From Kingdonia uniflora (lineage: Eukaryota; Streptophyta; Magnoliopsida; Ranunculales; Circaeasteraceae), in NCBI GenBank assembly GCA_014058105.1, contig JACGCM010000440.1, forward strand, positions 3,844,001-3,908,000: DNA of 64,000 bases, read 5' to 3'. The position numbers and the translations under genes were made by a program. Below the pieces are notes generated by a model, which did not search any database, was not told the DNA's origin, and worked only from the letters and a program-made list of their open reading frames with translations. How positions within the stretch are numbered: position 1 is the first letter of the stretch; every line of letters starts with the position of its first letter. Positions 4,300 through 38,336 of the stretch are shown here, piece by piece.

Positions 4300-4950
<651 letters not shown>

Positions 4951-5108: not shown

Positions 5109-5640
5109 TATCATTAATCTTGATAAACCAGCAAACTAATCTTCACATGAGGTTGTTGCTTGGATTAAACGTATTTTTTGAGTCAATAAGACTGGTTGCA
5201 GTGTCACACTTGATCCCAAAGTGGCTGGTAATCTCATTTTTTGTATTGATATTGCTACTCGTCTTGTGAACTCCCAACTTAAGGGGCTACGAAAGAGTGT
5301 CTGTATTGCTAGGCTTCATTCGGCGGTACCCGGTGTTGCTAAGGTGTCTAGAACGCTAGAGATGCTTACGGGTGTTGTGTTTCAGCATCCACTGCTTATT
5401 TATGTTGTGAAGCGTCAGCTTCATATTAGGACTATTTATGAGAGTAATCTTATGGAGTATGATGCTGATAAGCATGTAGTTGTGTTCTGGATATCATGCG
5501 AAGCTGATACTTATGTTATGACACTTTGGGTTTGATTTTGGGTGTTGCATGGCATATGCAAGAGCTAAGGAGGGTAAGGTCTAAGGTTTTGGGTGAGAAG
5601 GAGAATATGATTATGATGCAGGATGTGTTGGATACATAAT
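5109..5640 (+). pseudogene. Unrecognised coding-like remnant
   Basis: An open frame at 5221-5535 has a protein-like composition (LIFCIDIATRLVNSQLKGLR, then EMLTGVVFQHPLLIYVVKRQ, then NLMEYDADKHVVVFWISCEA). The same frame can be followed upstream as HEVVAWIKRIF, stop, VNKTGCSVTLDPKVAGN. After a one-base shift near 5533 it seems to continue as GFDFG and [19 protein letters not shown] conserved protein appears to underlie it, but I do not recognise the family. With an internal stop and a frameshift it is probably a relic like its neighbours. A homology search of the concatenated frames is the decisive test. Confidence 0.4.
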
Positions 5641-9525: not shown

Positions 9526-9781
9526 TCAAGACTCAATAGGAAGAGCATTGAAGAAATGATAGACCTCGTCTTTGTCTCTAACCCCAACCTCTGTTGAACA
9601 AACTGAACAACAAACTGGCCTCAATACTTCACCAGGCGCGGGTTCCACTTTACTATTACCAGAGTCTGTTCTGCTTTTACGTTTTCTCGAATTTTGATTC
9701 TGAAAAGATACTTGATCATTCTTCATCATCTTGCAGTTAACAACAAAAATGGCCCTGTACTGGGTTTCGTACGTCTCGTGC
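9526..9781 (-). CDS. EAPP-like gene, exon 3 (stop codon)
   Basis: The exon follows a TTGTAG acceptor (AG at 9783-9782). It encodes HETYETQYRAIFVVNCK, a basic Arg/Lys-rich stretch, the second cysteine block CCSVCSTEV and the terminal DEVYHFFNALPIES, with TGA at 9528-9526. The frame is unbroken. Confidence 0.9.
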
Positions 9782-12700
9782 CTACAAGATTCAGGTTCAT
9801 TTCAGTTAAAGATGACAAATATATATACATCTGACCTTGTAACAAATATGTATAATGATGGCATGTTTCTTGTAATTCAAGAGAAAACGATCTGTACGAG
9901 GATGAGAAACACAACTGAGTTTTCTTCTAATGCGCTACATGCCTACAACTTCAAATCAGAGACAAACAACTCTAATCCCACTCACTAAATATTGTCACAG
10001 GCTCACAGCTTTATTAGCCTCACTCATGTAGCGGTCATCAACTATAGCCATGTTAGATACATAAGGTTAAGTAGGAACACAACTTAAGTTCACTTCTAAT
10101 TAGCTACAAGCCTACAACTTTGAATCTGAAACAGACAGCTCTTATCCTTCATCCCATTCGCTAAACATTGTCATGGGCTCACAACGTTATCAACCTCATT
10201 CTTTCTATACTGATCATAATCTATAGCACAAATGTGGATAGCTCAAAAAACTACGTTCATAGGAGCAAGTTTAGATATAGAATTCGAGAGATATTCTCCT
10301 TAATAGTATCATTGGGATGTCATTATTCCTTCTTCACCCTGATGACTAGGAGAATAGCATCGATTCAATGCAAGATGCACAACCGTTTGGCTTGAACATC
10401 ACTGGTATCTGGAGCCACATTCCAACATCTGGTATATGGATGTTAGAAATATTGTTAAGCTATACATGACCACCAATGGCAGTCTTAAAATTTTGTCACT
10501 CCTTGCCTCCACTACAAGAAAAAGTGCCTATGATAGCACTTAAACGATTCCATTTTTAGTGAATGCTATTATAAGTTGATATTTATGGCATTTTTTAAAT
10601 CAACGCTATCATATACTAGACTGTGCGCGAAAAAACACAAATGCAAGCAATAAACATCGCGAATTAACTAACACTCCAAAAGTAGGAACCACTCCATCCA
10701 CGACTCTAACTCATTTTTTCTCTACCCTAACCTTGTATCTTAATTCTCTTCCACTCCTAAGAGCATCTCTACTTGCTATCGGCTCCTACATCTTCCAATG
10801 TCCATAGTTAGGTCTCTCTCTCTTATGCTACAAATTTCCGTGTGATTCCTTGTACCAGATCCGAAATTGAATTCTAGTGACTGAAGTTGTTGTTTCAAAT
10901 TTCACCCGAGGCAAGCTCTTCATTACTCTAGGCAGGTACCCTCTTTTCTTACTGGTTTTGGGAATCTATTGTTCAATTTAGGGTTTCGTGGGGTTTTATT
11001 TGGATTATGGACTTTGCTTGTGTGTAATTTTGTTGACATTAGAGATTAATTAAGAGGTAAATCTGTTTCTTCCAATTTCGTTGCCTTAGGACAGAAAGTC
11101 TCCAATCTCAAATCTCAAATCTCCTTGTTGGATTTTAATACTTATTTGTAATGATTTAGTAGTATGCGGATTTTGGATTCTTGCTAGCATACTAAAATGA
11201 GAGAGATAGAGATGTTGAATCAAACACACCATTTTAGTTGTTTCGGGAGTAAATTTGAAGCAAATGATAATGAGGTTGTTAGATGGCCTAAAAACTCGAC
11301 GTAATCTTGCTCCGTAAAGACTATCCTTTGCAGATCTGTGTGATATCTTTATTGACTACTTGTGGAAATTTAACAATCGGCTTTTGGCTTTGATTCATGT
11401 TAGGAAGAGTTAAGACTAAGTCTAGTATATAACTAAGTCTCCTAGATCTTTGTATTTAATCTCCTGTAATATGTGAAAATATCCCTTTTATTATGGGATT
11501 AGTTAGATTGCATCACTGTAGATATTTGCTCTATTAGTGAAGTAAGAAAGATTTGAATGATATTTTTTTTCTCTAGGAGTCATAACAAGGATATCAAGAT
11601 GGCAACAGTGGCTACTTCTCACTTCATATCATGTACCTCACATGTCCATTGTGGAATATTTGGGTCGGAATCGAACGTATCGGCGCAGATTGGCTTAAAA
11701 AAACATGACTTATAATGGGTACTTAAGATCATCTCTGAACAAGGTTGAATTGTTACAACTGAAAAACAATTCACGAGCATTTGTCAGACAAGCAAGGAAG
11801 AGTGGATTCAAAACTAAGAGCGCAGGGCTTTCGGGAGCGATCACATGCGAAGATGGGATGAACTTGGTATTTGTGGAGGGAGATGGTATATGAGAATGCT
11901 GCCCGTATTTTGGACTAAAGTATATATTTCAGATTTTAAAATTAATAATGAATGGTAAGTTTGGGTAATGCCTAGATTTAGTATGAGAAACATACCTGGC
12001 ATGTGGAGGATTGAGTGGTTTCTCGGGTGGACGAGGCCAGACTTGAGGTAATGCTACATCTTTATGAGAAATATAAAGCCTCTGAAAGTAACTAGCCGAG
12101 TAGGCTACCTGAATGGCATTGTTATGCAAATGAAAATGCTTAGAAACTGCGTCCCGGCCAACAGAGTGGCAGCATACAAAGAAATGATCTGAACCCATAG
12201 AAGCATTCCAAAATCTGAACTATATACTGAATCTTTTAGGAAACATGAAGGTAACGCGCAACTTAATAACTTTATTAGATTGTTCTGTAATATTAAATCT
12301 TCTGATTTTACAAACTCTGATCGAAATTTATTCATTGCATGATTGGTTTTTTTGTGGTGCAGCAAAAGATAGTGCTGAAAGTGGATATGTACTGTGACAA
12401 ATGCAGAATCAAGGCTATGAAAGTGGCTGCAATCCTAGAGAGTGAGTATCATCTCTTTTCTTTTGTTTACAAGATAATACAATTTAGATTTCATCGTTTT
12501 TGGCCTTATAGTTCCGTTAGACTGCAGTCCGTCTCTTCAGTGTTTACTAGTTTTTCTCCTCTGCAGTCTTATCAAACTTTCATGCAATTATGGTCTATAT
12601 GAATTTACAAGGCAAATGAGAACATTAGTGGCTCAAACCCAAACCTTGCAGTAGCAAAATTGAGTTTTTATGAGGTTTTGTTAACACTAATAGATAAGGG

Positions 12701-15700
12701 ATTAACTCCGGTTTAATATCTGAACCGGTGTTAGTTCTTGGTCGTGCCAAGTGTAGACTAAAAGTCAATTTAGAATTTGGAAGAAAAAAGAAAAAAAAAA
12801 TGCCAATTTACAAGTATGACCAAATATATCAGATTCGTGGAATTGATTTTATTTGACAAAAGTTAGAAACTTGGAACAAGCCAATTAAGGACCACTTCTC
12901 ACAAGCTAATTAAGGACTGGACTGATGTCCAGTGCCTACACCGGTGGCAGAAGGTCTTGAATTCAAAACTTATTAAAGGTCCATGGTCTAAGGAGGAGGA
13001 TGATATCATTGTTGAAATGGTTAATCAACTTGGGGCAAAAAAGTGGTCCACTATAGCTTAAGCTTTACCTGGGCGTATTGGGAAGCAATATCGTGAAAGG
13101 TGGCATAATCATCTCAATCCTGGCATAAACAAGCAGGCATGGACTCAAGATGAAGAGTTAGCTCTGATTCAAGCTCATCAAATTTATGGAAACAAATGGG
13201 CTGAATTAACAAAGTTCTTGCCGGGAAAAACGGACAATGCAATAAAAAACCATTGGAACAGTTCTGTAAAAAAAAGAAGTTGGGCTCATATTTGGCGTCA
13301 GGTTTACTCGCACAATTTAAAGGACTGCCTCAGGTCGGAAATTCGAGCCAGTTTACTCCTTCATCCTCCTTTACTATACAACAGAACAGCTTTGAAAACA
13401 GTGGTCTCCCTGATGGCGATGAAGGGGAGGAAATGTCAGAATATAGTCAAGGATCAACAGCTGTTGGTTGCTCACAAACTGTGTTTGACCTCCCTACTTT
13501 TGTTGTAAATTCACAAGAGGACAAAGTAATTGATGATAGAAATCAAAGAGTGGGGCAAGGCTCAAGTTCATCATCATGTTCAAAACATTACTACACATCT
13601 CACGAAGAAGTTTAGGCTCCGAAGTTCCTTATGGAACAGTTTTCTCTGCAAAGTCCTCTGAGCCAAAATCACATGAGCTTCCTTGTACTTCTGCAATTGA
13701 GTTAGTCAGAGGATCATTAGATTTAATTGAAACACCGAGATATAGTTCAGCAATTGTGGATAAAAACCAGGAAATTGGATCTCTTTGTTTACAAAGTTCT
13801 ATGGGGTTAAATTCTTCTACGTTTATGGGGGAGCTGGTATCCATATCTGAAGATAACTGCTACAAGGTTACGTTCTCAGAATCAGTGATCAATGAATGCT
13901 TCTCTGCACAAAATCTGACGAAATGCTCAAATTATAATGAATTAAATGGGTGTACAGGTTTAAGTTCAGCTTCACAATTATATGATGCAGTGAGATCTTC
14001 TGAGGTTGCAGTAACTGCAAGTTATCAGAGCTTATTGACAACTCCCTTTAGCGACGAATGTAATGAAATAGAAAACGTGTTTGGTGGAGCTCAAAACTTG
14101 GGATTTATTGCAAGCTCATGCAATGAGTTTGTGTATGTTAGTGGCTCTGCTGATGGCCCTAGTGACGATGATATAGAGACAGTATGTCCGCGTGGTGAGC
14201 CAGGTGGGGAGATGGGACTTTCTGAATCAACAGTTAAAACACAAGATCAGGTTTCAGAAGCTCAATGTTATGACCCATCCGTAACAATGGTTAACACAGA
14301 AGACCAGGTTTCAGGAGCTCAATGTTAAGGCCCAGCCATAACAGCGGTTAACGCGGAAGATCAGGTTTCAGGAGCTCAATGTTATGGCCCATCCATATCA
14401 ACGGTTAACTCAGAAGATCAGGTATCTGGAGCTCAATGTTATCACCCATCCATATCAACAGTTGACACAAAAGATCAGGTTTCTGGAACACTATGTTACG
14501 AGCCACCTCGTTTTCCTATCTTAGAACTCCCATTTTTCAGCTGCGACCTCGTACCAGCGGATGATATGCTGCAAGATTATAGTCCGTTTGGGATACGTTA
14601 GCTGACCATGCCATCTATAAATTACTCTACTCCTTTCAACCTATGGGAGTCCCCATCTCGAGAAGTTAGTACTCCTAATGTGTCTGTAACAATTATAGGA
14701 TTCATAAGCACATTATCCGTTGCGAAGAAACGTCAGAGTGAACTCCTGTCTCCTATACAAGAAAAAAATGTGGAAAAAAATTTGAGCGGGACGATAAACA
14801 ATGTGACTTTTCTTGCTTGAATGTTATTTCGGATGAGAATAGATCTTTCAAAGCCTCTGCTGAAGATAAAGAAAATTTGGAAGAAAGGTTTCGAGATAGC
14901 ACGATTTCAGAGGAAACGACTGATAATGCTAATTTTTTTGACAAATTCAAGCAAGGAAACACTGATAGCAATGCTCCAACTAAAGTCGATTGTGACAGTG
15001 CAAACCCAATGGTACAACAACCATCTGGAGTTCTAGCTGAGCATAACTTGAACGATCTTCTATTTGTTTCTCCAGAACGAGATGGATATCCTAGGAACAG
15101 GGCCTTTATCGTTGGCTCTAGGACTCCAAGGGGACAATTTTCTAGAAGCATAGGAACTTCAATTCAGCGTTCCCCAAGCAGCTCAAATCAACTCAACTCA
15201 CGCCCGCTTGAGGCCACCTTTGAATATGCTGGAAATAATGCAGATATTGAAAACTTTAGCATATCTGGTAACACTCCTATAAAGAGAGGGTTTGAATCTC
15301 CCTCAGCATGGAAGTCTTCTTGGTTCATGAACTCTTTTTTGCCACTAGAAAGAAAAGATCTTATATGGGAAGCGATCAAGGTATTATAAAAGCTTGAATT
15401 GTATAGTTTTAGTTTTCAACTAAAGGTAATAAATATGTATTTCATCTATTATTTTGCAGCAAAGGCTCACTCTAGATGAGGAAAGCATAAGTTACTGTAT
15501 GCAACGGTTTGAAGATTATGGAGGAGTTGCAAAACAAGGCTAAGGAGGATAATTGATAGTTGTAAGTCAGACACAATGATAATGAAAAAAAGGCCAAAGA
15601 AAATTGATCTCAAGGAATGGATATTTTTTGTTAAAGGAAAGTCATCTCCAGTATTTAAAGTATTTGAGTTTGTTTATAAGTAAGTCAGAATAATGAATTA

Positions 15701-18700
15701 TGTATAGCCTAATATCATTAACCACTACTTGGCAGGCAAAAAACAATAAATTAAGGAATATGAGGTCAAAGCAAGTCTTCCCTTATACAGGAAGTCGACG
15801 GGGTTATGCTCGTCTAGAAAATGATATGGTAATTAATGTTTTAAGAGACACAATCTCTAAATTATATGAAGTTTATGCTTCGATGATAATTATTATGAAT
15901 AATATCGCAAACCACAGGTAGGGTAGCCGAGCTTGAGGAGCAACTAGCTGCAATGATGGGGAAGATGGAAAAAATGTCTAATTTGATTTCGAAGTTGATT
16001 CGTAACCAGGCAAGTCTTTCATGCATATACCATAATAATTTAGTAGACACTTTTTTAATTTTTTTTATTAGTTAGGTTTTTATTCTACTAAGGTATAAAA
16101 ATGCGACTTAAGAAAAAAATTATCTTCGTCGCTGAAAAACCCTTCCCTCCGAAATTATAACATATGGATGAATAGCACTATTAAACATACAAGGCAGTGC
16201 TTCTCTTTCAAACAGATGGATGAATAGCATTAGTATGACTTTTAGGGTGGCTTGTGCACAACAACAAGAGCCTCAGCTGCTAAAGAACTATTTTAAAATC
16301 CTCCAATTGGTTGGGTTTATAAGATCTGCTGTAATAGTGTCGCTAGAGGAAATATGCAGTCACACTAGGAGCAGTTATAGAAACATGCAGTCACACTAGG
16401 AATAATTGATGTTCATTTAGACTTTCTGCTACTATTCGAATTTTGCTGTTACGGGAGACTAATGTATATAAAGTTATAGAAACATCCATCTGTTTGAAAG
16501 AGAAGTACTGCCTTGTATAATTGCATGTTTCTATAACTGCTCTTAGAAACATTAATTATGAATCCATCTGTTTGAAATACATTAGTCTCCCGTAACAGCT
16601 GCATAATACATTAAGGTGCATGTCTTTGATTATACAGATGAATCCATCTGTATGATCCCGTAAGAATTTGATTATGAATAGCATCTGTATGATTCAGTAG
16701 CAGCTGCATAATACATTATTATACAGATGAATCTATTTGTATGATCCCATAAAATTTTGATTATGAATAACATCTGTATGATTCAAACAGATGAATCCAT
16801 CTGTTGATTATACAAGGCAGTGCTTCTCTTTCAAACAGATGGATGAATAATAGTTAGACACAATATTGTTTATTCTCAATATTTTCATGTCTTTTATGTG
16901 AACTTCAAGGTCAAAGTACGGGAGATTTGCAGTCTTCACATACACCTCATTTACTCTCCCAAGAAAATTATAATGTAATAACAAAGTGATCTCTTGTAAA
17001 TAATATTATTAGCTTTTCTCATTTCTTTCATTTGTCATTTTACAGGCACAAAGTGTATCGGAGGTACGAAGTGTAGCGGATGATGAAGTATTACATACAC
17101 AAACGTCTACCCCCCAAGTAAATCTTTTTCTTTTTGGGCTTATTTTTTTATTAGATAATTGAAAATAATATTAAAGACAAGGACTAAGCTAGTCTTGCTT
17201 CTGTAACACATCTTCTAATAGAATCTATACCAAGCTTCTTCATGAAATATTTAGCCCTGATATCTCTATAGAGAGACCACTGCATATAATATAGTTGAAA
17301 TATTAGCACTTCCAAGTTTATATAACCATATAATATATATAGAATTGCAAATATAATCTTAATTTTTCTTTTCAGGCACAATGTAAAAAAAAGGCTAAAG
17401 ACACCAGTTGCAAATTGTTAAGTTGAAAGGGTTTTAAGGTTGTTGTTGCTCATGCACAATGGGTGACAGAAGATCCTGAATGCATACTGCATAATCAAAT
17501 TCTTGGGCCTAATGTATGCAAAGTTGTTATTACGAATGTCGTAATCCCTTTATTCCCGTTATGGAGGGCGACTGATGATGCAAGTACAATTGGTGGTGCT
17601 TTAAAGAGTTTTATTGTATGGCCCAAAAAATACGCAGTTATGAAGGATGGTTGATTTAGGTATAATAAACCCTTATAACTTAACTATTTATTCTCCGTCA
17701 CTACATCCTTATATAATCAAATTCCTATACATTAGTAGACCTATATCTGATCTTTATATAAGAAAATTTAAAGTAAGATTCATGATTGGTGTTCATTTTC
17801 GGATTAGATATGGTATGATTGTTTTACTATTTATAATTTAATTTGTTTACACTCTTTTTTGTATCTTTTATGTAGTTTATGATGGAGTCGCAGTTGAAAA
17901 TAACTTCTTACAGTGTTTGACCATTGTACATAGATAAGAAGGGATTTGCATTTATCTTTTATCTTTTTTGTTGAATACCTGAATATGATGATTATAACAT
18001 CAACTTTTATTGTATCAGAGTCCTTTTTGCAGCAAAGCTGTGACTTTTATTTATTTGATAAAATGCTAATTTCATTTTTGTAATTTAGAGAGTATTAATG
18101 ACCGCTTCTTATTGAACATTATAATTGTTTTGTACCACTAATTTGTTAAGTAAATATAGCATTTGAAGATGTTATGTTACAGATAATAGATAACATTAGA
18201 CAAATGTTATGGTTCAAATAATAGATAACATAATACAAATGTTATGGTTACAGATAACAGATAGCATCAGACAAATGCTAAGATACAGATAATAGATAGC
18301 ATCAGACAAATGCTATGGTACAAATAATAAATAGCATCAGACAAATGCTATAGTACACATAATAGAGAACATTAGAAAAATACTATGTTACAGATAATAG
18401 ATAGCATTATAGAAATACTATAGTACAAATAATAGATAACATTAGATAACTGCTATGGAAAAGATAATAGATAACATTAGAAAAATGTTATGTCATGTAA
18501 ATAAAGACATTGCATGAATATTATGGTAGGCACAAAAAATAGCATTATAGCCTTGCTATGTTAAAAAGAAAAAACAGCGGGGAAAAAATATTATAGAAAG
18601 TCAACTATGGCGTTCTCTAAACGCCATTTAAAATAAATTGATAGCATTGCTCAAATACTATTATTTAAGGGCGTTCAAAAAAATGCAATTGTAAAATGGA

Positions 18701-21700
18701 TAGCATCGCATAATAGAGTGGAGGAAAAATGCTATCGTAGCTTTTCATAGAGGTTTTTCAATGCTATTATGTGTTTTTTCTTGTAGTGCTCTCTCGCTCA
18801 AACGCAATCACTATTAGCCAAAATTATCACACAAATTCTAATTTAATTTGTATTGGTTGTTTCTAATTTAGTTTTACATTTTCAAAAATCGACATTCATA
18901 TTAAGATGAAAATAATAGAATTAGAGAGAACCTTTGGCGGTCTGCTCAAAAACAGTACCAAAACTTGAAGTTGTATACATTGGGAAAAAAAAGGTACGAA
19001 TTACCAAAAAAAAGCAATGGATTTCATAGTAAATATATACTTAGTAAGCATACCTTTGGCACTCCAAACAAAGAGTGGTGAAACAAGCTGGACAGCTGAG
19101 GACAGCGTCAGAGGTTCCACTTTTTCTTTTCTTAAGAACCCATAATTCATCTTTAATGTCAAGATTAGGATCGTAGAATTCTGGCTTAGTAGAGTAGTCA
19201 ATTTCATCATCATCGGAAACTGAGAATAAGACAAATCAAACATTTGTTTAATAGATTGAACTTCAACAGGAGTAATAACAAGAGATTTGCATGTCATATG
19301 ATTTATATTACAGAGCTGGTAGATTTGCACTGGCCAACTCTGTGTTTGAACTATAATAACTAAAGCACTATAATGTAAGGGTTCAAATTGAATGATCCAC
19401 ATCAAAGATTTGAAAGATTTTTGTTTCAGTACACTTTTACCATACCAAAATTGGTACTCGTGTCAGTTAAATATTGATCGGAGCTAGAGATAAGTTCGTA
19501 CATGGTTTAATAATCTGAAGCAGATCTAATTGGAAGACTGAAAGAGATGAACTTTAAGAAAAATAGAAGTATGCATTTACAAACTTGATCAAGTACTTCT
19601 CAATCAAGTTGAGATCAACTCGAACACCAACAACATCAAGTCCAAAAGAAACTTTACTATAATGCTTTTAAATTCACCACCATATTCATAGTGACAAAAC
19701 ACTGCACTGGTTTTATTCATTAGATCATATGCACTAAAATGTTTTAAATCTGAAAATCGAAACCACTCGGTGTAAAGAAAATGATAAAAACGATATCTAG
19801 TGGATGCAAATATGGCATTGTGTGCAGCATGGTTCAATCCACGCCATATATAACATGGTGGAGGACAGGCGCACCAGTGTCAAGAAAATTAGACCCCAAG
19901 GTCGTCCCATGAGAACAATCGCAACATTTACAAGAACGAATTACCCTGGGTTGGACGTGGCTTCAACTCCAAACCACAACTAGGCTAACTCCTGCGGATA
20001 AATTTCTCATTGGACCGAAACAAGCACTTCCAGTTTGAAACAAGATTTTTTACTAAATCTACGTCTAGTAGTAACTAATAAAGTTCAAACAGAAGTTGAA
20101 AAACTCTATAGAATATACACACAAAAATACCAAAGTCCTATTCAAACAACTGCTGTGATAGGTACCTGGAAAGTGAAAGAAAAAATAAACCATTCCTGAA
20201 TTGAAATTTCCATGAAAATGACAGATAATGAAATAATAGATTTCAGGATAACAAGAAAAGGAATTTCCCAATTCTACCTAATCTCCTATGGAGCAAATAC
20301 ATAAATTCAGAAGTTAGGTCTGATACCATCTTTTTTAAAGGTGAACCCGAATTTCTTAGCATTGAGTTACAAATGCAAGTAGTTTGATTGAATAAGTCAA
20401 CAGTTAGTTTCTGTTTGAAGTTGAGTGTAGATTTCTGTTAAGTTGTTATTGTTAGCTGTTTGAGTCAGAATTTAGTAGGAGTCTTCCTGTTTGTTAGGCC
20501 TTATCTAAGTAGTAGTGAAGAGTCAGTTCTGTAAGCCTATATAAGCATTGGGCAAGGAATTAATATCTAATCACAATGCTTTTTGGAGGTTAGGTTCCCT
20601 CAAAGAACCGATCTGAGGCAGGTTTTCCACAAACTAAACCCAACTATCCACTTTAAATCGTTGTTCTTAATAGAAGAGGGAGGTTAACCCTAATCAATCT
20701 GTAACTCTTGATGAAGCTCCATTGTAGTGGATTAGAGGAGAAGAACAAAGACAACATAACTAAGTTTGCAGATCCAGATCTGAACTCAACAATCAAGCTC
20801 AATCTAGTACGCTTTGGAGTTGGAAAAAACACAACATAATCTGGCTGATAAACCTATGAAAATTACACAACCTTATGCCGAAAAGGTTAGAGGTCTACAA
20901 GATATCTGCCATTAGAAGATATCCCTTCACCCACTCTGAGAGAAGACAAGGCTGTGGCGATGATATTAAAAGAGTCTGTTGCAGAGGAGCTGGAATACTA
21001 CAAGTATAGCCTTATTGGGAGGTTACCACCATTACAGATCACAAACTTCATGAGATCAGATCCTTAGCCTTGGCTAAATAGAAACTTAAAGGTACTTGTA
21101 TGTTTATAGCAATTTGCAAAGGTTTTTTCATCATCAGAATGGATAATGAAGAAGATAAGCAAAAAGTCTGGAGAGGAGGTACTTGGTTCATTGAGAAACA
21201 ACCAATGAGATTACTGCCATGGACTAGAATATTCAAGTTGGAAAATGAGAAGAACTCTCATGCCTTGGTTTGGGTGAGATCTCCTGACCTTCATATGGAA
21301 TACTGGTCAATTAACAACTTGATGGCTGTGGGAAGGCTCTGGGTACACCTATTAGAGTGGAGAACTCAACAAGACAGGGAATTTGAATTCTATGCTAGTG
21401 CGCTTGCAGAGATAGATCTCGCAAAGACCATACGCAATTGGTATTATTTTGATGATGGAGTTGAAATGTGGCAAGAAATTCATAGTGGAGCCACCAAAAT
21501 TTTCCTTCCACTCTAAAATCATCGGTCATGTGGTGTCAGATTGTGGAACTATTGCGTTTTTCATTTATTGATTCTTCTATATAGCTTGATTACGAAAACT
21601 AGATACTAGTTTTTGATTTTATGAATTAACTCGTTTAATTTTCGAAAGACTTCGATTTTCCCTGTAATTGTGTTGGTATGTAATCATGTACAATTAGGAC

Positions 21701-24700
21701 TATATTTTTGACTCGTCACGTGGAGATAAATTTCTAAGGCTTACTTGATTTTAATTCTCTTAATTTAATTTTATTTTGTCTATCGACTAATCAATCACAA
21801 GCATAAACTGCTTTAGTGGCAAAACTTTTACTTGAGATATTAAAAAATAAAAACAAATGAGAGAAAGATGAATGAAGCCAGCAAAGTGAAAAAGACAATC
21901 TCTAAGACTAAGGACATCATTGATCTCACAGAGAAAAGGAAGGGGAGCAAACCAGATAGTAGTGAGCCACCTGCCTTAGGAAATGGAGTGAAGATTCCAG
22001 AGAGCTCAAATGTTAGAGACATAAACAACAAAGGAGGAGACTGCTCCAAAGTGGTCCCACAAGGAGAAAACAATAAAAACGCTGAGAATAAAATTCTACA
22101 GTCTAATAAAGAGAAGAACACCATTACAGAGTTCACAGACTCATCTGTGACTAAACAGTCAGGTGATAGCGAGAATGAGAAACCATTAGAGGAAAACATG
22201 GAAAGTGAAGGTAACATGGGGAATACATGCAACATGAAATCTGATGAAAGTTATGAGTCTACTGACCATAGAGATGTTGTTGACCAAGTCCAGGATCACA
22301 AGGAGAAGACGTATATTCAATCAAGATAGCACTGGGGGGTGGGGGGTGTGTGGGTGGGTGTGGTGTCTTCCTACATTCGTGCAGCTTGTGAAGTCAGTGT
22401 AGGAAATTCAGTTACAGGAAGCTCCCTTATATGTTCTGAAGACTAAACTTAAACTCCTTAAAGCAACTCCCAACATGTGGAAGAAGGAGGTGTTTGACAT
22501 AGATAGTCAGTCCATAAATAACATTACTTCTGAGATCCAACGTTAAATGAAGCACAAGAATTGTATCCTCAATGTGACTTAATTCAAGATCATATTGCTC
22601 AACCTGAAATAAGACTGAACACTGCCATTTAAAAAACCATATAGTTGCAAAGGTCTAGACTGAACTGGGCAAAGGGTAGAGAAAGAAATACAGCTTACAA
22701 TCACAACATCACTAACTGAAAAGAAACAAAGGCTTTATTACAAATCTGATTGATGAACAATGGATCAGCCAATTACATTCTGAGAAGATAAGCAAATATA
22801 TTGTAAATTTCTACATGTAAAGTTCTCTAAAGAAGATAGGGTGATTATGAGCTCTAGATTGATGGATCTCATTTCCTCCAAAGGTCAGTGAGAAAGAAAA
22901 CAACATGCTTTCCAATATTCCATCGAATGAGAAGATAAAAAAAAGCTATGCTTGACATGAATGGGGATAGTGCACCATGGCCAGATGGTTTTCAAGGCAT
23001 GTTCTATCACGTGTTGGGATAGTGTCGAGAGAGATGTGACTGTTGCCATCAAATCCATCTTTGTTAAAACAGTATTACAGAAGGGTTTCAACACCAACTT
23101 CATTACTCTTACTGCTAAGAAGCCTAAAGCAATACAGACCTATCTGCCTGAATAATTTCTGCCTTAAGATTATTACTAAAGTGATGGTTTCAAGGCTCAA
23201 AAGGGTAGTTATATATTTCCAGAGCAAGGGGCTTTTATACCTGAAAGAAACATCCAGTCTAACATTGGGTTTGCTAGTGAATTTCTAAATGAGTTAGATG
23301 ACAAGAAAAGGGGAGAGAATGCTGACATTAAGGTGGACATCTCACAGCCTTTTGATACTCTTGACTGGGGTTTTCTGCTAGAGGTCCTTAAAAGATTTGG
23401 CTTCAGTAGTACTTGGTGCAGATGGATAGAATGTATTTGCAGCAGTGCTTATATCTCTATCATGGTTAACGGGGGCCCATCTGGCTACTTCCCAGCTTCT
23501 AAGGGATTGAGGCAAGGTGATCCTCTATCACCTCTTCTTTTGCTTTTGTAGAGGAGGTGATAGGCATTGGTCTTCACTGGCTTAGGTCTCATGCTGGAGT
23601 TCAGGCCATAACATCTCAGAAAGGTACAACTCCTTATCGCTTTTTTGCTGATGATATTATTATATTTTCCAATGGCAGCATGAAGGGTCTAAAACTCATC
23701 AAATCCCTCCTAGCTCACTACCAGCCTACAACTCCTTATCGCTTTTTTGCTGATGATATTATTATATTTTCCAATGGCAGCATGAAGGGTCTAAAACTCA
23801 TCAAATCCCTCCTAGATCACTACCAGCCTGCTGCAGGGCAATAGATTAATAAGGCCAAGAGTAAATTGTTTCTGGGGACCATGAATGAAACAAAAAATTA
23901 TAGAGTGGAGAACCTCTTTGAGATAACTCAAGGAACATTGCCTGAAACTTACCTCGGTGTTCTTCTTGATAAAGGGAAAGTCAAGTCTTCTACCTTGAGA
24001 CTGCTTGTTGACAAGATCAAGAAAATGGAAAATCAATTTCTCTCCTTTCAAAGTAGGGTGGTGTTGGCAAACTCAGTTCTTAGCAGTATTTCTATTGACA
24101 ACATGGTTGTCTCCAAATGGCCTCACTCAGTGATAAATGTATGTGAAGCAGCTACTAAATTTTTTATCTGGACTGCCAATCACTCTAAGAGAAAGGGTAC
24201 CACTGTATCTTGAGGAAAACGTTGTAAGCCTAAGAAGGATGATGGTTTGGGTCTGAGAAGGCGTAAGGAAATGAACTTTGCCATGTTGATATAGCTAGCT
24301 TGGCCAATAATGCAAAAAAGAAGATGCCTGGGGTACTTATATGAGAGCTAAGTACTTCTCTCATTCTGGTGGCATGATAAAGTACTACAAGAGATCTTCA
24401 GGTTGGGAAGGGAAAAAGAATCTTACAAGGAGGTGCAGGAATATTCTACTAGCTCCATAGCTGATGGCACTAAGGTGAGCATTTAGCAGAACAGTTGGAC
24501 TCTTAACTCCACTCTAGCAGTAGATGTTGCGGGAGAAGATTCTCTAGGCATGCATAAAAGATATGTGAGTGAACTGCTTACAAATGGGCAGTGGAATCTT
24601 GATACTGTTACAGGCAGGCTCCTTCAATAAATGGGAGTTGATTTTCTAACATATTTGTTAAAATGAAGGTAAAGACCATTGTTTCTTTATTCCACTTGTG

Positions 24701-27487
24701 CAAGGCAAGTTCACAGTCAAAGCTGCTCGTGACACTATCAGAAGAACAAGCAATCAATACTGGTCGAGAGACAACATTTGGAGGACACTACTTCCCCAAG
24801 ATTAAACAACCTGGCCTGGAGAATCTTTCACCATATCCCCACTGATGAAAAAATTCAAAGGCAAAATGTTTACTTATTCTCAAGATGCAGTTTATGCAAT
24901 CTGACAGAAATCACTGAACATTTGTTCCTCCACTTCTCTTTTGCCTTAAATGTATGGGGTTGGGCTATGCAGATCTTCAACCTCTCCATTACAGATTGAA
25001 CTTTCCCCAATGTTTTCAATCTTGCTGCAGGTAAAAGCTTTTAAATCAAAGACTTCTGGATTAGTGTGTGTCTCTCTATACTGAATGACATTTGGTCCTC
25101 TAGAAACACAACAAGACATGATGAATCCATTTTATTTTACAATGCTGGAAAATACAACATTCTCAATCAAGTTCAGCTATCTGCTATGACCACCAAAAGA
25201 GTCATAAATAACTCTGTAAATGACCTGAGTATTATCAATGCCCGGAGGTGAGATGCAGAATCAAGAAGCCACCAGATATAAGAGCTTGCTAGAGGGCTCC
25301 ATCCCAGGGAAGAATGAAAACTAATACAGACGGGGTTTGCATGGCCAATCCCAGCAGAGGTGGTTTTGGCATTGTTTTTAGAAATGAGATAAGTGATGTA
25401 CAAGGAGTTATGATTCAGAATCTGATGATAACAACTTCATACATGGTTGGATATCATGGTATACTTGCCATAGCTGAGAAGGCCTACACCATGTTCTGGC
25501 TACAACTCATTATTGTGCCAGACTCAATCTCTGCATTGAATGCTTTCAGCAGAATAGTATGCCTTGGCAAATGGTTGCTAAATGGAGAAGACTGTTCTCT
25601 TATGTCTATAGATATTTTTCACTCCTGAAGGGATGTTAATTCTTAGCTGATGGGGAAGGGCAATGGTTTCATCACAAGCCTAAGTTCATCAAACACCTAG
25701 AGATATCCTATAAGCCTTATTATAGATGTTAATTACTATGATTGCGGAAGCATCAAAATATCTCTAATTGCAATTCTAGAGTTTCTAGAGTTTTCCCCCA
25801 AACTCAAAACAAGAGAACTGAAAAACAAAAAGGGCTCCTAACATCAATATAAAGACAAAGCAGAAGGTACGTGGCCTCGTGGGTAGACGACCCACGAGGC
25901 ATGATCTATCAATAGATTAGTGTAGATTCCTTTAATGGCTTGACTGTAGGAGTTATCTACAGTAGCCCTTCATCTTGTACTTGATTTAGTTGCTTTAATA
26001 AATTGTTAACCTTTGGCATCAAGAGAAAAAAACTTTTGAATGCAATAAAAACTATTAAGTTCAACAAACCAGTCATACTGAAGCGGATCCTGAAGATGAT
26101 AAGAGGATTCGGAAATATTACAGATTTGTCTTAATCAGTACTAAACAACAATGTCTAGTTATTTTGTACAACTAGACCTCCATTACTAGAGTATAAAAAC
26201 AAACTCGAACTCAATAAATTGTTTGTATCCATGTTGCATTTGTTTGATTTGAACAAAACAATATGAATTCTCATGATTATATTGATTTTCACGAAAATAA
26301 GGATGACAGAGAAGAGAGTTTTTGCAACTATAATCACTCATTAATAATCAAAAACGCTCAAAAATTATGTTGTAAACCCTGAATTTGCCAAGTTTGGATT
26401 TCACGTTGTAGCAGGAAATGAGTCATCTAACAGAACTACCTGGTTGGGTAATGTTGATAACAAATGTTTATCGGGTTCTGTAAGAAGATCAAACCAGCTG
26501 TACCATTTTCATCATAACTCTGTTTGCAAGTCACTGCTTATAAAACTGGTTGGCAAAATCATAACAACGTAGTATTTGGTTACTGAAAATAAGATGGAAG
26601 GCAGGATTTTTCTCTCATGGATGTTGCAGAGAAGATGTTGAGAAAAACTTAGAAAATATACAAAGAGAACTCTATCATTCAGCCTTTTATATACAAACTT
26701 GAGTTTGATCTTCATTATTTAGTTGGACTAACTCTACTTTTCAATTCCTGTTAAGTGTTTCTAAGTGGAGGGCTTTTTTATATCTACGTAGACTTTAATT
26801 GTTATCAAAAAACTGTTTCCGTAATTTTGAAAGTCTGAATAAACATGTTTCTAATCAGCGTCAAAATAGATATAAGAATGCCTCCAATTATAATGAATTA
26901 ACCAAGAGACAAATGGATTTTTAGTGGAACCAAATAACATAAAATAAACTCAAGTTATTTTCATATAAAAAGCAGAGATAAAGTTTTATTTGTATTCGTT
27001 CTAAACTTCTCTAACATTTTGTCTACAATATCCATAGTAGAGAAATTTCAACTCCTTTCTAATTTCCAGCAATCAAATAGCCCCAAATAATTTGATCAAA
27101 GTATAAGTGATGATTTTGCCTATCAATTTCAATATCAGTGGCTTACAAGGAGAAGCTATGGGGAAAGCTAGTATAACTAATTCTAGCTTCTTGCCGAACC
27201 CGATCAAGGTTGGTTATCAGCATAATCCAACTGGGTACTTCGGTAATAAGACGAAACATGTTATTGCTGTAAGCATAGAATCCAAACTTGAGCGACATTA
27301 CGTTTTATTGTAACTACTACTCTATTGTTCAATAGACATAATAGTAATGCCTTAAAGTTGAAATTCTGAATCCACTAGTCATCATGATATGGATATTGAA
27401 GTGAGTGAAGATGAGAGTATTTTTACCTGTTTTCTGTGAACTGCTACTACTGCTGGGTGGTGATGATGACTCCATTCCAATTTCCAT
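9526..27487 (-). CDS. E2F-associated phosphoprotein (EAPP)-like gene, three exons, intact 160-aa ORF
   Basis: Exons are 27487-27427 (61 nt), 19219-19054 (166 nt) and 9781-9526 (256 nt, including TGA at 9528-9526). Together they make 483 nt, or 160 codons plus stop. Both junctions use GT/AG and are in phase (G|TT gives V; AG|G gives R). The protein starts with a Ser-rich tail, then DDDEIDYSTKPEFYDPNLD, KDELWVLKKRK, a CxxC-type block CPACFTTLCLEC, then QYRAIFVVNCK and a basic SRKRKS stretch, and ends with PVCCSVCSTEV and DEVYHFFNALP. These blocks are diagnostic of the EAPP family, a small nuclear zinc-ribbon-like protein reported in animals to bind E2F factors; its plant role is not established. 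Introns of about 8.2 and 9.3 kb are swollen by a LINE and by CACTA-1. Expression cannot be judged from sequence. Confidence 0.85.
9899..10226. repeat. Imperfect direct duplication in EAPP intron 2
   Basis: About 9899-10046 and about 10070-10226 are two diverged copies of one unit. Shared anchors are AACACAACT, GCCTACAACTT, AACATTGTCA with GGCTCACA, and CAACTATAGC versus TAATCTATAGC. The copies are about 170 bp apart. No coding sense was seen. Confidence 0.65.
10510..10523 (+). repeat. CACTA-1 left terminal inverted repeat
   Basis: CACTACAAGAAAAA, preceded by the target duplication CTC. Confidence 0.92.
10690..11892 (+). pseudogene. Captured 5' part of granule-bound starch synthase I (waxy-type)
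   Basis: The first coding exon begins after TTTCTCTAG at 11577. ATG at 11599-11601 gives MATVATSHFISCTSHVHCG. After frame breaks it reads NGYLRSSLNKVELLQLK, then ITCEDGMNLVFV at 11845-11877. These are the plastid transit peptide and the start of the mature GBSS I protein, which makes amylose in starch granules; the family has CGKGMNLVFVG here. Upstream, a plausible untranslated leader ends with a GGCAG|GTACCC donor at 10935, and 10936-11576 behaves as a leader intron, matching the known 5'-UTR intron of waxy genes. The copy stops before the ADP-glucose-binding catalytic domain and has an in-frame TAA soon after the start. It is a captured fragment that includes promoter-proximal sequence. Confidence 0.82.
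11996..12222 (-). pseudogene. Captured exon of an exostosin-family (GT47) glycosyltransferase, antisense
   Basis: On the minus strand the frame reads FWNASMGSDHFFVCCHSVGR, then SKHFHLHNNAIQVAYSASYF, then ISHKDVALPQVWPRPPE, ending CCAG|GTATGT at 11996. This is a core block of plant GT47 exostosin-like enzymes, Golgi type II membrane glycosyltransferases of cell-wall polysaccharide synthesis. Only this exon and its donor are present, and it lies opposite in strand to its neighbours in CACTA-1. The family call is firm; the subfamily is not. Confidence 0.8.
12363..12441 (+). pseudogene. Captured exon of a heavy-metal-associated (HMA/HIPP-type) protein
   Basis: An isolated exon is bounded by TGGTGCAG (AG at 12361-12362) and GTGAGT (GT at 12442-12443). 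It encodes KIVLKVDMYCDKCRIKAMKV and then AAILE. The M-Y-C-D-K-C segment is the MxCxxC metal-binding loop of the HMA fold. The downstream part of the HMA domain is missing. It is in frame internally but has no gene around it. Confidence 0.82.
12926..15545 (+). pseudogene. Captured three-repeat MYB (MYB3R) gene relic
   Basis: The frame opens at the end of R1 (DVQCLHRWQKVLN), runs through R2 (GPWSKEEDDIIVEMVNQLG to RERWHNHLNPGINKQAW) and R3 (TQDEELALIQAHQIYGNKWA to FLPGKTDNAIKNHWNSSVKK), then a long Ser-rich C-terminal region with the family block near 14608 (YSTPFNLWESPSRE). 3R-MYBs regulate G2/M genes through MSA elements in the nucleus. Breaks include TAA at 13059-13061 (family CAA), a one-base loss in an A-run near 13270, a shift near 13615, TAA at 14326-14328, TAG at 14599-14601 (family CAG) and a shift near 14790. 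An intron (about 15380-15460) is kept, so capture was from genomic DNA. The start of R1 is absent. Confidence 0.88.
14245..14529 (+). repeat. Five-copy 57-bp in-frame minisatellite inside the MYB3R relic
   Basis: The GAYCAG anchor recurs at 14245, 14302, 14359, 14416 and 14473, exactly 57 bp apart each time. Each unit encodes 19 residues of the form DQVSGAQCY-P-S---TVN--. The last unit is the most diverged, and the second carries a TAA at 14326-14328. Confidence 0.93.
15551..17654 (+). pseudogene. TNPA / Ptta-En-Spm plant transposase-like remnant
   Basis: Exon-like blocks are: KKRPKKIDLKEWIFFVKGKS (about 15575-15660); NNKLRNMRSKQVFPYTGSRR with GYARLENDM (about 15740-15830); a coiled-coil RVAELEEQLAAMMGKMEKMS (about 15918-16009); AQSVSEVRSVADDEVLHTQT (about 17046-17118); and VAHAQWVTEDPECILHNQIL to GGALKSFIVWPKKYAV (about 17445-17645). 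The PYTxSRRGYARLE block is the plant Ptta/En/Spm signature, and the last block resembles the DUF8039-type domain of these proteins. In En/Spm, TNPA binds the subterminal repeats. A TGA after KLLS near 17423 and broken frames make it a relic. It marks the transposon's own sequence to the right of the captured genes. Confidence 0.75.
16180..16850. repeat. Foldback mosaic of short direct and inverted repeats within CACTA-1
   Basis: The block CAAGGCAGTGCTTCTC with TTTCAAACAGATGGATGAAT occurs directly at about 16190-16222 and 16810-16849, and inverted at about 16484-16520. Between them CATCTGTATGATYC and GAATCCATCTG units alternate, and GCAGTCACACTAGGA is duplicated (about 16358 and 16389). It lies in a probable intron of the TNPA-like relic. 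Confidence 0.7.
17655..18159. other. AT-rich spacer between the transposase relic and the right subterminal array
   Basis: No coding pattern is seen beyond the end of the TNPA-like block. It probably holds the 3' untranslated part of the transposon gene. Confidence 0.4.
18160..18720. repeat. CACTA-1 right subterminal repeat array
   Basis: Around ten degenerate units of about 40-50 bp recur, each with GATAATAGATAGCAT-like and AAATGCTATGGTA-like halves. The left end has fewer copies (GATAGCAC at 10535, GAATGCTAT near 10560, CGCTATCAT near 10605). Subterminal arrays of this kind are the transposase-binding regions of CACTA elements. Confidence 0.8.
18775..18788 (-). repeat. CACTA-1 right terminal inverted repeat
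   Basis: TTTTTCTTGTAGTG, the exact complement of the left end, followed by the target duplication CTC. Confidence 0.92.
18792..19053. other. EAPP intron 2, original intron sequence beside CACTA-1
   Basis: AT-rich sequence without coding pattern. Together with 9782-10506 it makes about 1 kb, the apparent intron length before insertion. Confidence 0.6.
19054..19219 (-). CDS. EAPP-like gene, exon 2
   Basis: The exon follows a TTCTCAG acceptor (AG at 19221-19220) and ends GCCAAAG|GTATGC at 19054. It encodes the acidic DDDEIDYS motif, KPEFYDPNLD and the first cysteine block CPACFTTLCLEC, the most conserved part of the family. The reading frame is unbroken. Confidence 0.9.
19220..20780. other. 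EAPP intron 1, left part; no firm gene
   Basis: Minus-strand open frames around 19440-19500 and 19604-19837 look faintly protein-like but match no family I know. At about 20535 a CTATATAAGC box lies in a plus-strand block (20340-20780) that could be the 5' leader of the LINE that follows or an old LTR. Neither is demonstrated. Confidence 0.35.
21100..21516 (+). pseudogene. LINE ORF1, DUF4283 domain
   Basis: The ORF reads GFFIIRMDNEEDKQKVWRGG, then TWFIEKQPMRLLPWTRIF and LVWVRSPDLHMEYWSINNLM. This is the DUF4283 pattern (F..xDxxxVWxGGxW, LxPWTxxF, WVRxPDLxxEYW) of plant LINE ORF1 RNA-binding proteins. The open frame is 138 codons, shorter than complete ORF1 proteins, and ends at TAA near 21514. 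Confidence 0.8.
21868..22329 (+). pseudogene. LINE ORF1 C-terminal region (charged, low complexity)
   Basis: An open frame of 153 codons, rich in Lys, Glu, Ser and Asn, opens with MNEASKVKKTISKTKD. It has no recognisable domain. Its position between the DUF4283 block and the RT suggests the hydrophilic tail of ORF1. It ends immediately before a G-rich run. Confidence 0.5.
22334..22358 (+). repeat. G-rich run with quadruplex pattern
   Basis: Four runs of at least three G separated by loops of 1, 5 and 1 bases lie on the plus strand, just after the charged ORF1 tail of the LINE. Confidence 0.7.
23140..24240 (+). pseudogene. LINE reverse transcriptase relic
   Basis: Blocks are RPICLNNFCLKIITKVMVSR (with a shift), DISQPFDTLDWGFLLEVLKR, FPASKGLRQGDPLSPLL, then FFADDIIIFSNGS twice, and GTLPETYLGVLLDKGKVKSS. 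RQGDPLSP and FADD are RT palm motifs. Stops and shifts occur near 23550 and 23845. A 102-bp tandem duplication repeats the FADD catalytic motif. Confidence 0.85.
23626..23829 (+). repeat. 102-bp in-frame tandem duplication spanning the RT FADD motif
   Basis: Units are 23626-23727 and 23728-23829, nearly identical (one has GCTCACTACCAGCCT, the other GATCACTACCAGCCT). Because 102 is divisible by 3, the frame continues through both copies. Confidence 0.93.
24690..25000 (+). pseudogene. LINE zf-RVT (zinc-binding) domain relic
   Basis: After a frame shift near 24780 the sequence reads LAWRIFHHIPTDEKIQRQNV, CSLCNLTEITEHLFLHFSFA and WGWAM. This is the zf-RVT pattern (W....PT...L..R......C..C....E...HLF..C) found between RT and RNase H in plant LINEs. 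The last Cys has become Ser. Confidence 0.75.
25314..25640 (+). pseudogene. LINE RNase H-like C-terminal relic
   Basis: KTNTDGVCMANPSRGGFGIV followed by FRNEISDVQG matches the start of the plant LINE RNase H domain (K.N.DG......G.GG..R). Later active-site blocks are weak (AIAEKA resembles the E-containing A-EAxA helix). It is the last coding part of the element. Confidence 0.7.
25641..27426. other. EAPP intron 1, right part; no firm gene
   Basis: AT-rich with no recognised coding block. It contains a perfect palindrome at 25874-25900. Confidence 0.45.
25874..25900. repeat. Perfect 11-bp-stem palindrome
   Basis: GCCTCGTGGGT and ACCCACGAGGC flank a 5-base loop (AGACG). It is GC-rich against an AT-rich background. 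Function unknown. Confidence 0.85.
27427..27487 (-). CDS. EAPP-like gene, exon 1 (start codon)
   Basis: The ATG is at 27487-27485. The exon encodes MEIGMESSS followed by a Ser/Pro-rich tail and ends ACAG|GTAAAA at 27427, leaving one coding base. A second in-frame Met lies at codon 5. This exon is assigned by phase and composition, because the N-terminus is poorly conserved in the family. It is the least certain exon. Confidence 0.7.
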
Positions 27488-31833: not shown

Positions 31834-33110
31834 TCATTTCTCTTCTAGTAGCCTTTGTCTAAGACCATAACATTTGCCAATTTTTTGGAATCTTTCAAAG
31901 GTGAACATTGGTTGAAACGCTAAGTTGCATAATTTTCTTGTTCGTGAAAGTGCTACAAAAGTCAACCCAAGGATCTCCCTTTTACCAATTTCCACGATTG
32001 CTTGATCTAAAGTAAGTCCTTGACTTTTATATATCGTAATTACCCAACATAGAAGAAGTGGTATTTGTGTTCGTTGACAAGATGTATCAGACATATATTT
32101 TCTAATTGGATGCCTGTGGTGGTATTGGAACAATGTTATTACGTTCATGAAATTTTGGACTGCGGTAGTTATCAAAGTTAACCATAACTGCGAGAGGCAT
32201 ATTATACGGTAACACACAACCAGGGGCATAGGCAATATCAGTTATACTACCCACCGCACCGTTGAGCAGTCCATATTTTATTGCTAGATTTGATTGAAGC
32301 ATTACACAGGCCCCTACTGACAGATATAATGTTTTCTCCAACCCTTTTGCAATATCTGACGTGGAAGAGGATGCAAGATCACGATTATTTTTTGAAGGGA
32401 TTTTTGCAATGGGTTTTCAAAGTTCAATCATCCTCTCGCGATTGTAATTATTGGTCGCTTGTTTCGTCGAGAATAAACGTAGAGCGTGTTTGAACTTGTA
32501 TTTATCGGTGACGCTTAGAATTGAAAAATCCCTAGTTTTGAAAAGACACGAGTCGTGTATTGACCATTGCCCTTCATTAAGTCTTCTTAGAGCATCTCTG
32601 TAAGGTGCTTGATCATTTCCCGACTGGCAAAATATTTGTGGCAATCGTACACATTTATCAAAACTAACATAAGCTATCCCACCATTTTGTTGCACAAGGT
32701 TCCCTTGTTTTGTATAAAGTGGACTATCACAAACAGGGGGCAATTGACGTATATCATCTACCAATACGATTGAAACATTGGCAAATATGGCTTTCCTTAA
32801 CATACTAGACTCATCAATGATTATGAGTTTTGTATCTTTAAATTCATCTTGCGTTCTACTGTAATGATCACCAGTAACAGATTTGTAATTGTATGAACTA
32901 CTTCTATCAGCTGAAGTCATGGTGATGGTAGAACCTCCAATGTTGAAGGCAACCACTCTAGTTGGGGCCATTATGGGCACATAAGTTTTGTTTTTGAAAT
33001 GACCAATCATAGAACGAACAATTACATTAATTAGAGCTGATTTTTCACTTCCCGCTCCACCACATACGATCATTCAAATATTCTTTCCCGTCTGAATTAA
33101 ATTTTGAACC
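31834..33110 (-). pseudogene. Helitron PIF1-like helicase domain relic
   Basis: Frames on the minus strand give a Walker A block GGAGSEKSALIN (family GAGTGKS; Gly has become Glu), Walker B LIIIDESSM, DDIRQLPPVCDSPLY, then GACVMLQSNLAIKYGLLNGA and the C-terminal ITIYKSQGLTLDQAIVEIGK with FVALSRTRK. These are the ordered superfamily 1 motifs of the Helitron DNA helicase, which unwinds DNA during rolling-circle transposition. The sequence is split into three frames. Confidence 0.88.
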
Positions 33111-33292
33111 AGATCGTGAGCAACCCTCTTATCAATTGATAGTTTTTTTTAATGTTGCTACTAACGAAACGTTCTATTCTCCCTCTAAATAGTCATAATC
33201 GGTTCGTAAACTATTGTGAACAAATTTCCTTTCTGAATCAATATTAGGATATATTTGCAAACCTTCATCCCAATTGTGTGAGGTATTGAATC

Positions 33293-36800: not shown

Positions 36801-36839
36801 TGAACCTTACTAAGGAGGCTAGTTCTAACGAGGCTCTAT

Positions 36840-38110: not shown

Positions 38111-38336
38111 AAAGTAGCAGAAAGTGTCGACATTGATGTTGAACCCTCTCGAGAGGTTGATGAAGAAGTTATGGTTGAGTCCGATGCACCGGATCAAGGC
38201 GAGGAACCTAATGATTTAGACATTCTAATAGTACTTTAAAAGGAGCTGATAGTTGCAAGAATTTTGGGTAGGTATGTTAACTCCCTAAATCACTTGTTAC
38301 TTACGGATGGTGGTAAACCAGAAAGTTACAAGGAGG

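Follow-up and report, generated by a model that had tools for sequence, protein, structure and literature searches.

A CACTA transposon in an EAPP intron of Kingdonia uniflora carries pieces of several host genes, one of them apparently of spliced origin

We analysed a 64,000-nucleotide stretch of the Kingdonia uniflora genome (GenBank assembly GCA_014058105.1, contig JACGCM010000440.1, positions 3,844,001 to 3,908,000 of the forward strand; hereafter the window), in which a CACTA transposon of 8,279 bp, bounded at 10510–18788 by its terminal repeats and target duplication, lies inside an intron of the gene for E2F-associated phosphoprotein (EAPP), on the strand opposite to that gene. Splice sites place the invaded intron at 19053 to 9782 on the minus strand (~9.27 kb, of which 8,279 bp are the element), and the two flanking exons, when joined, match the Pfam family Eapp_C with an E value of 3.8e-46. 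From its 5′ end the element comprises a region of its own, a fragment of a GBSS I gene, a unit holding a GT47 (exostosin) exon and an HMA-like exon, an intronless relic of a MYB3R gene, TNPA-like exon remnants and subterminal tandem repeats. Below, loci are referred to by L numbers and contigs by C numbers.

The ends of the element are those of the CACTA (En/Spm) type and consist of inverted terminal repeats (TIRs) that start with CACTA, a 3-bp target duplication and repeats of a subterminal motif at both ends. The 13-mer CACTACAAGAAAA of the element ends has no further occurrence in the window; in the genome searched (1,003,380,622 bp in 2,693 contigs) it occurs 741 + 744 = 1,485 times versus 25 + 35 = 60 times for the reversed control, a count that does not equal the copy number of this element's family, several different families having the same 13-mer. 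The subterminal motif, [AG][CT]GCTAT or its complement (AATGCTAT type), was picked after inspecting the element ends and is present 3 times in the first 161 nt, 12 times in the last 649 nt, 4 times in the interior and 22 times in the window outside the element; the two end counts were reached by 0/1112 and 0/1102 overlapping stretches outside it. The insertion site also exists in an empty state. A second EAPP-like locus in the same genome (C934) aligns with the flank that follows the element and runs through the CT-rich insertion site with one CTC, and 242 of 278 positions, with 5 gaps, are identical between this locus and the joined window flanks. An earlier note on this DNA, made from its letters alone, had described one bounded CACTA element with 14-bp TIRs and a CTC duplication, and the exact repeats, the motif enrichment and the empty paralogous site agree with that description; it had also asked whether the captured fragments are found at this locus without the element, and at the paralogous C934 site they are absent. 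No match between the element and the rest of the window was found at E 1e-3, and searching the window for Rfam families and tRNAs gave no match either.

To assign the GBSS piece, we compared the window with the genome's own GBSS gene at locus L060 (C1433), which encodes a start much like that in the window before running on into a starch-synthase region. The two are 90% identical over 11418–11888 and 94% identical over 11298–11393 and over 11212–11244; window positions 11245–11297 are unmatched in L060, and the gene has ~350 bp extra near window position 11418. The fragment retains an acceptor AG at 11575–11576, also present in the gene, and an ATG at 11599, and its frame is broken near 11700. 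Because the match takes in intron sequence ahead of the ATG, the GBSS piece came from genomic DNA. The earlier note had read a leader, intron and exon here; the intron and exon hold, as part of the leader intron followed by the exon, and the leader exon does not. The supposed leader exon (10690–10936) and its donor, about 10690–11211 in all, belong to the element itself, since nothing in the GBSS gene matches upstream of 11212, whereas sequence there is matched by L010 and at ten other places. With L010 the element shares its 5′ region over 10510–11063; of the stretch queried, the ten places match ~10691–11216 only, with 11224 as the furthest position, and the first 87–104 bp of the element are also found in L009, L011 and L015 at 74–76% identity. 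A PDB search with the GBSS piece gave no match at E values up to 5, and a literature search for a printed GBSS start found none. Separate probes gave the same gene assignments and were superseded by the genome's own genes.

Longer versions of the GBSS capture are present in six relatives (L049, L050, L052, L053, L054 and L057), in which 1.1–1.9 kb are collinear with the gene, introns included, at 83–88% identity and extend 0.6–1.4 kb beyond the GBSS breakpoint of the window. Two of these relatives, L052 and L054, extend as far as the TIR, and L050 falls short of the end by no more than 2 bp. Since six relatives carry the longer stretch, an older and longer GBSS capture was most likely truncated on its 3′ side in the lineage of the window element.

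The GT47 and HMA exons, which had been counted separately, form one 722-bp block. The GT47 exon is recognised by Pfam (PF03016) with an E value of 1.3e-7 and 31.7 bits, just below the cut-off of 33.4, and a PDB search with this piece gave six chance matches only. The other exon, which Pfam does not match, we take to be of HMA type solely from its metal-binding M-x-C-x-x-C motif. Both exons appear to have been captured together as one piece, because another repeat contains the block, identically bounded, at four loci (L055, L056, L058 and L059). This multi-copy repeat, whose members are mutually 92–94% alike over nearly all of the sequence fetched, has GT47-HMA beside an HSP70-like reading frame, and 9.8 kb around L055 contain no CACTAC or GTAGTG. 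A genome search with the GT47 exon returned 32 matches, all eight mosaic relatives described below among them; L066, fetched as a candidate GT47 gene, proved to be another GT47-HMA copy, interrupted by other sequence, and was rejected as the parent. The claim that the element holds pieces of unrelated host genes is borne out by the GBSS and MYB3R matches to the genome's own genes. That these stem from at least four gene sources is likely; as separate captures the number is too high, GT47 and HMA having come joined, and three acquisitions suffice.

The MYB3R relic has a different history. The window encodes the end of R1 and complete R2 and R3 repeats ungapped; the Myb domains are recognised by Pfam, and c-Myb (PDB 1h88) aligns over 117 residues without insertion. 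Conserved introns in R1, R2 and R3 are described for plant 3R-MYB genes (PMC3542171; PMC4223058). We located the parent gene on C237, with sister copies on C1565 (two) and C277, and matched it exon by exon to the window. In the captured span the parental exons measure 95, 104, 129, 1852, 250 and 118 bp and are separated by GT-AG introns of 133, 150, 104, 1271 and 1609 bp. All five introns are absent from the window and the exon-exon joins show no base gained or lost, the third join having two substitutions; overall, the intron-bearing gene and the relic are 94% identical. The piece begins about a dozen bases into one exon and ends mid-exon at GCC-ACTAG, its junction with the TNPA-like exon. 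Because all five parental GT-AG introns are precisely missing, the MYB3R piece appears to stem from spliced RNA. The earlier note had taken retained splice sites as a sign of repeated capture from genomic DNA, the MYB3R relic included; this holds for GBSS and fails for MYB3R. Tandem repeats of 57 bp lie in the relic at 14228–14512 and also in the gene, and their copy number may vary among copies.

A genome search with the MYB3R piece gave 48 matches, with 30/30 candidates scored. These fall into 22 rows for the four genes, 5 rows for distant relatives and 21 rows for 15 loci that lack the intron structure of the gene, two rows on C413 being counted as one copy split by ~10 kb. All 15 loci, the window included, adjoin other sequence of the window element. 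Of the 14 loci outside the window, 12 cover one or more intron positions and are intronless at each of them; C1526 and C655 cover no such position. Neither a free-standing processed MYB3R copy nor an intronless genomic MYB3R gene that could have served as donor is among the 48 matches. At the 5′ MYB3R junction the pattern was found in 6 of 8 copies and, like the window, all six have AATTAAG immediately ahead of the MYB3R-homologous sequence; L038 is without the duplicated stretch ahead of AATTAAG. The 3′ junction is identical in the two other copies read across it. Given the shared junctions and the element context of all 15 loci, a single MYB3R capture of spliced origin, followed by spread, is most likely.

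We then compared the MYB3R copies with exons one to four of the gene. In the fifth exon, counted from R1, the C237 gene model has a frame break, and a single gap distinguishes the C1565 sister gene at that place. The window copy has a dS of 0.081, a dN of 0.045 and 2 stops in 529 codons, and ten other copies have dS values of 0.078–0.130 and 1 to 11 stops. Over the 11 copies dN/dS is 0.40–0.92, a value to which constraint along the branch of the gene itself contributes. All 11 measured copies carry stop codons and are relics.

The element is not a singleton. The order GBSS-GT47-HMA-MYB3R recurs at eight other loci (on C869, C655, C2144, C397, C1897, C413, C1636 and C1526), a lower bound from 40 scored candidates out of 122, so that the mosaic occupies at least nine places with the window, several of them internally deleted. 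The C413 copy (L046 end 997743, L032 start 1007876) is apparently split by ~10 kb of unrelated sequence that probably inserted later. The 5′ flanks of the four mosaic loci with a TIR in hand and of two longer-GBSS copies differ from that of the window and from each other, with one exception among the seven compared: 178 bp common to L041 and L044 at different offsets. In L021 and L022 an internal deletion joins MYB3R near 14431–14435 to 17155, and L030 has the same join within an inverted segment.

Of seven TIR pairs fetched by place, four relatives were kept (L009, L010, L011 and L015/L016). Target duplications flank L009 (CAC/CAC), L011 (GCA/GCA) and L015/L016 (CAC/CAC); the 3-mers at the ends of L010, CTG and TTG, are mismatched. 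L012 and L017/L018 were rejected, having only the TIR in common with the element and unequal 3-mers (TTT/CCA and TAC/TCA), as was L013 (AAA/AAA), which has only 18625–18788 in common with it. At 12.4 kb, with CAC on both sides, L015 encodes a tnp2 transposase (Transposase_21, E 7.7e-83) and has a TNPA-like exon without MYB3R ahead of it, and L009 matches Transpos_assoc (E 2e-18). The TNPA and tnp2/TNPD genes of a CACTA family are therefore found among the relatives, while the window copy has a TNPA-like remnant only. Its positions 15342–15671 are 92.5% identical to L015, and Pfam Transposase_23 matches the window below the cut-off of 21 bits (16.4 bits, E 0.008; a second run, 13.7 bits, E 0.056); likeness to L015 and these sub-threshold matches are the basis for the TNPA-like remnant of the earlier note. 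MYB3R reads in frame into this exon (frame 14742–15389). Between the TNPA-like exons lies a stretch not derived from the captured genes identified, and the predicted fold of 16160–16870 has a z score of -8.26, with 0/20 shuffles as good. Ten reading frames of the four relatives were run against Pfam, two without a match; host-type matches are a prenyltransferase in L011 (E 7.4e-58) and a PDS5 piece in L015 (E 9.1e-15), with matches below their cut-offs to pfkB and PPR in L011 and to MFS in L010. The L011 prenyltransferase frame (undecaprenyl diphosphate synthase family) has 285 aa without stops and is accompanied by pfkB, PPR and hAT pieces. Gene pick-up looks habitual in this CACTA group.

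Table 1 Features of the CACTA element and of the EAPP exons around it (window coordinates).
Feature	Position	Strand	Basis
EAPP exon 3′ of the invaded intron	9529–9781	-	Pfam Eapp_C, E 2e-24; acceptor AG before 9781; 9529 is an open-frame limit only
Target-site duplication CTC, left copy	10507–10509		Direct reading; the paralogous empty site has a single CTC
Left 14-bp terminal inverted repeat, CACTACAAGAAAAA	10510–10523	+	Exact match
Element 5′ region, not GBSS	10510–11211	+	Comparison with relatives and the GBSS gene
GBSS I fragment, genomic: part of leader intron, then exon	11212–11888	+	Match to the genome's own gene, L060
63-nt filler between the GBSS and GT47-HMA blocks	11889–11951		Outside both matched blocks
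Pre-joined GT47-HMA unit, 722 bp	11952–12673		Same limits in L055, L056, L058 and L059 at 91–92%
GT47 (exostosin) exon	11996–12214	-	Pfam PF03016; donor GT 11995–11994 read; acceptor inferred
HMA-like exon (MYCDKC motif)	12363–12441	+	Acceptor AG 12361–12362; donor GTGAGT
Linking sequence with inverted ACCGG-type repeat	12674–12907		Sequence reading; duplicated AAGC[CT]AATTAAGGAC at the MYB3R junction
MYB3R relic, intronless	12908–15343	+	Runs from the end of R1 through R3 into most of the C-terminal region, R2 included; contains stops and frame breaks
TNPA-like exon remnants with introns	15344–17640	+	Similarity to L015; first exon in frame with MYB3R
Nested inverted repeats separating TNPA-like exons, predicted to form a strong hairpin	16187–16845		Fold prediction
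3′ subterminal tandem repeats, ~35 bp per unit	18143–18528	+	Repeat reading
Right 14-bp terminal inverted repeat, CACTACAAGAAAAA inverted	18775–18788	-	Exact match
Target-site duplication CTC, right copy	18789–18791		Direct reading
EAPP exon 5′ of the invaded intron	19054–19235	-	Pfam Eapp_C, E 4.3e-16; donor GT 19053–19052; 19235 is an open-frame limit only

With host gene pieces inside its TIRs, and with parental genes for GBSS and MYB3R present in this genome, the element is very probably a non-autonomous Pack-CACTA, one copy of a multi-copy lineage that was assembled in steps, inserted into the EAPP intron. The first acquisition by a CACTA element would have been intron-containing genomic DNA of GBSS I. 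One descendant would then have exchanged the 3′ portion of this piece for the pre-formed GT47-HMA segment and for 2.4 kb from the interior of a spliced MYB3R message, the latter becoming joined to the element's own TNPA-like gene; the mosaic would have spread to at least nine places, several copies suffering internal deletions, and the window copy would have jumped into the EAPP intron in opposite orientation. Movement was presumably in trans, by the transposase of relatives such as L015, and copies at different positions fit mobilisation by another element's transposase. The interior was probably rebuilt through template switching when excision gaps were misrepaired, and the duplicated stretch at the MYB3R junction could be a trace of this. 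Several points weigh against this account. The parental GT47 and HMA genes were not found; the identity of TNPA is based on likeness to a relative and sub-threshold Pfam matches; and the link from MYB3R to the 3′ subterminal region was read in L021, L022 and L030.

How the spliced MYB3R sequence entered the element can be explained in two ways. We favour, with some reserve, an ordinary processed pseudogene, made by the enzymes of a retrotransposon and later captured as DNA, which is the simplest chemistry and needs no new capture route. The piece is intron-free as processed pseudogenes are, with five of five introns precisely absent. It has no poly(A) tail or 3′ end of its own, ending inside an exon and running into the TNPA-like exon, though neither would survive if only an internal piece were captured as DNA; the lack of a free-standing processed copy among the 48 matches also speaks against a pseudogene intermediate. 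Alternatively, gap repair may have copied spliced MYB3R cDNA or RNA directly, an RNA-templated acquisition without a pseudogene step, which we think possible and rather unlikely. An internal piece with both breakpoints mid-exon and no tail fits such copying, as does the result of the genome search.

The view of the earlier note, that all pieces were taken from genomic DNA, gene after gene, draws on the intron sequence kept in GBSS, on the six relatives collinear with the gene over 1.1–1.9 kb and on the splice sites that flank the GT47 and HMA exons. Against it, GT47 and HMA are one unit and the MYB3R introns are exactly gone, which by the exon joins appears to refute genomic capture for MYB3R unless an intronless genomic donor existed; as a whole we consider this view improbable. 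It is more doubtful still that the MYB3R-TNPA fusion is a working element protein under selection. MYB3R is in frame with the TNPA-like exon and the copy-versus-gene dN/dS values lie below one at 0.40–0.92, though these include the constraint on the gene's branch; the idea is refuted for the 11 copies measured, all of which have 1 to 11 stops, and the frame is broken inside the window copy too. Nested insertions or an assembly error, suggested by fragments of different origin lying side by side and by the other repeats in the window, we dismiss as the least probable explanation of all, the clean empty site in the paralogue, together with the same order in eight other loci with mostly distinct 5′ flanks, ruling it out.

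Functional proteins are probably not made from the captured pieces. The most plausible activity would be at the RNA level, from EAPP read-through. Because the element is antisense to EAPP, such a transcript is predicted to contain MYB3R and GBSS in antisense and the GT47 exon in sense orientation with its donor site, possibly spliceable.

Elsewhere in the window, reading frames resembling EDRF1 lie at 558–2974 on the plus strand, where TPR_EDRF1 matches weakly (E 0.0039) and for frame 1133–2443 only. A zinc-binding dehydrogenase piece (E 9.2e-5, below cut-off) lies near a TruB/dyskerin-like piece (E 6.5e-9) at 4778–4882 and 5182–5532 on the plus strand, and these are possibly more shuffled gene pieces. 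By a look at reading frames, LINE-like frames occupy 21000–25600 (+) and copia retrotransposon-like frames 36182–39324 (+); frames of a PIF1-type (Helitron-like) helicase lie at 31834–34649 (-), of which frame 32417–33073 alone was profile-tested.

The element belongs to a known kind. A Tpn1 element is reported, by a reference title, to have captured genomic HMG-domain sequence; unlike it, the window element also has a processed MYB3R piece. The Tpn1 family of Ipomoea nil is otherwise alike, with non-autonomous members whose inner parts are swapped for host sequence between conserved ends, and chimeric transcripts are reported (PMC5105172). Tgm-Express1, in intron 2 of soybean F3H, resembles the window element in its CACTA ends, its intronic site and its exonic and intronic fragments from several unrelated host genes; it holds five host gene fragments in 5.7 kb and produces chimeric transcripts (PMC1947982), whereas the window element has one piece that is a spliced copy and is a multi-copy mosaic. 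Pack-CACTA elements of Arabidopsis and maize are likewise TIR-bounded with coding DNA (PMC8903248, PMC13317346), and in maize they draw on the most loci among the element types compared there (PMC8903248). The acquisition model proposed for them, tandem insertion and aberrant excision (PMC8903248, PMC13317346), would not alone yield a spliced MYB3R. CACTA-like (Jozin) elements of Chenopodium also have captured fragments 5′ of the element's coding part, with one gene named per element in the cases consulted, against three acquisitions here (PMC8978399). Multi-gene capture by CACTA elements is already published (PMC1947982, PMC5105172, PMC8903248), and the earlier note's word 'rare' does not stand: Tgm-Express1 has five fragments (PMC1947982), maize Pack-CACTA elements often hold several loci (PMC8903248), and kin elements in this genome carry other pieces. 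The closest published hint that we met for the spliced piece concerns CACTA transposase genes, for which loss of introns through reverse transcriptase has been inferred (PMC4158355); it points in the same direction as direct RNA or cDNA copying. A search of the open-access literature by titles and the starts of abstracts found no spliced host gene inside a CACTA element; subscription papers were outside its scope, and we make no claim of absence.

What stands out is one uncommon feature, DNA-derived and RNA-derived capture in a single element, with relatives that partly order the steps. How DNA transposons gain pieces of unlinked host genes is unsettled, and this genome offers a partly ordered series: CACTA elements without the pieces, elements with a long genomic GBSS, elements with a short GBSS together with GT47-HMA and spliced MYB3R, and internally deleted mosaics. 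The element corrects an easy inference, in that captured fragments lying beside splice sites need not all be genomic. The series allows one to ask whether spliced RNA is a template in capture; if direct copying from cDNA or RNA were true, DNA transposons could take up host sequence by an RNA-templated route.

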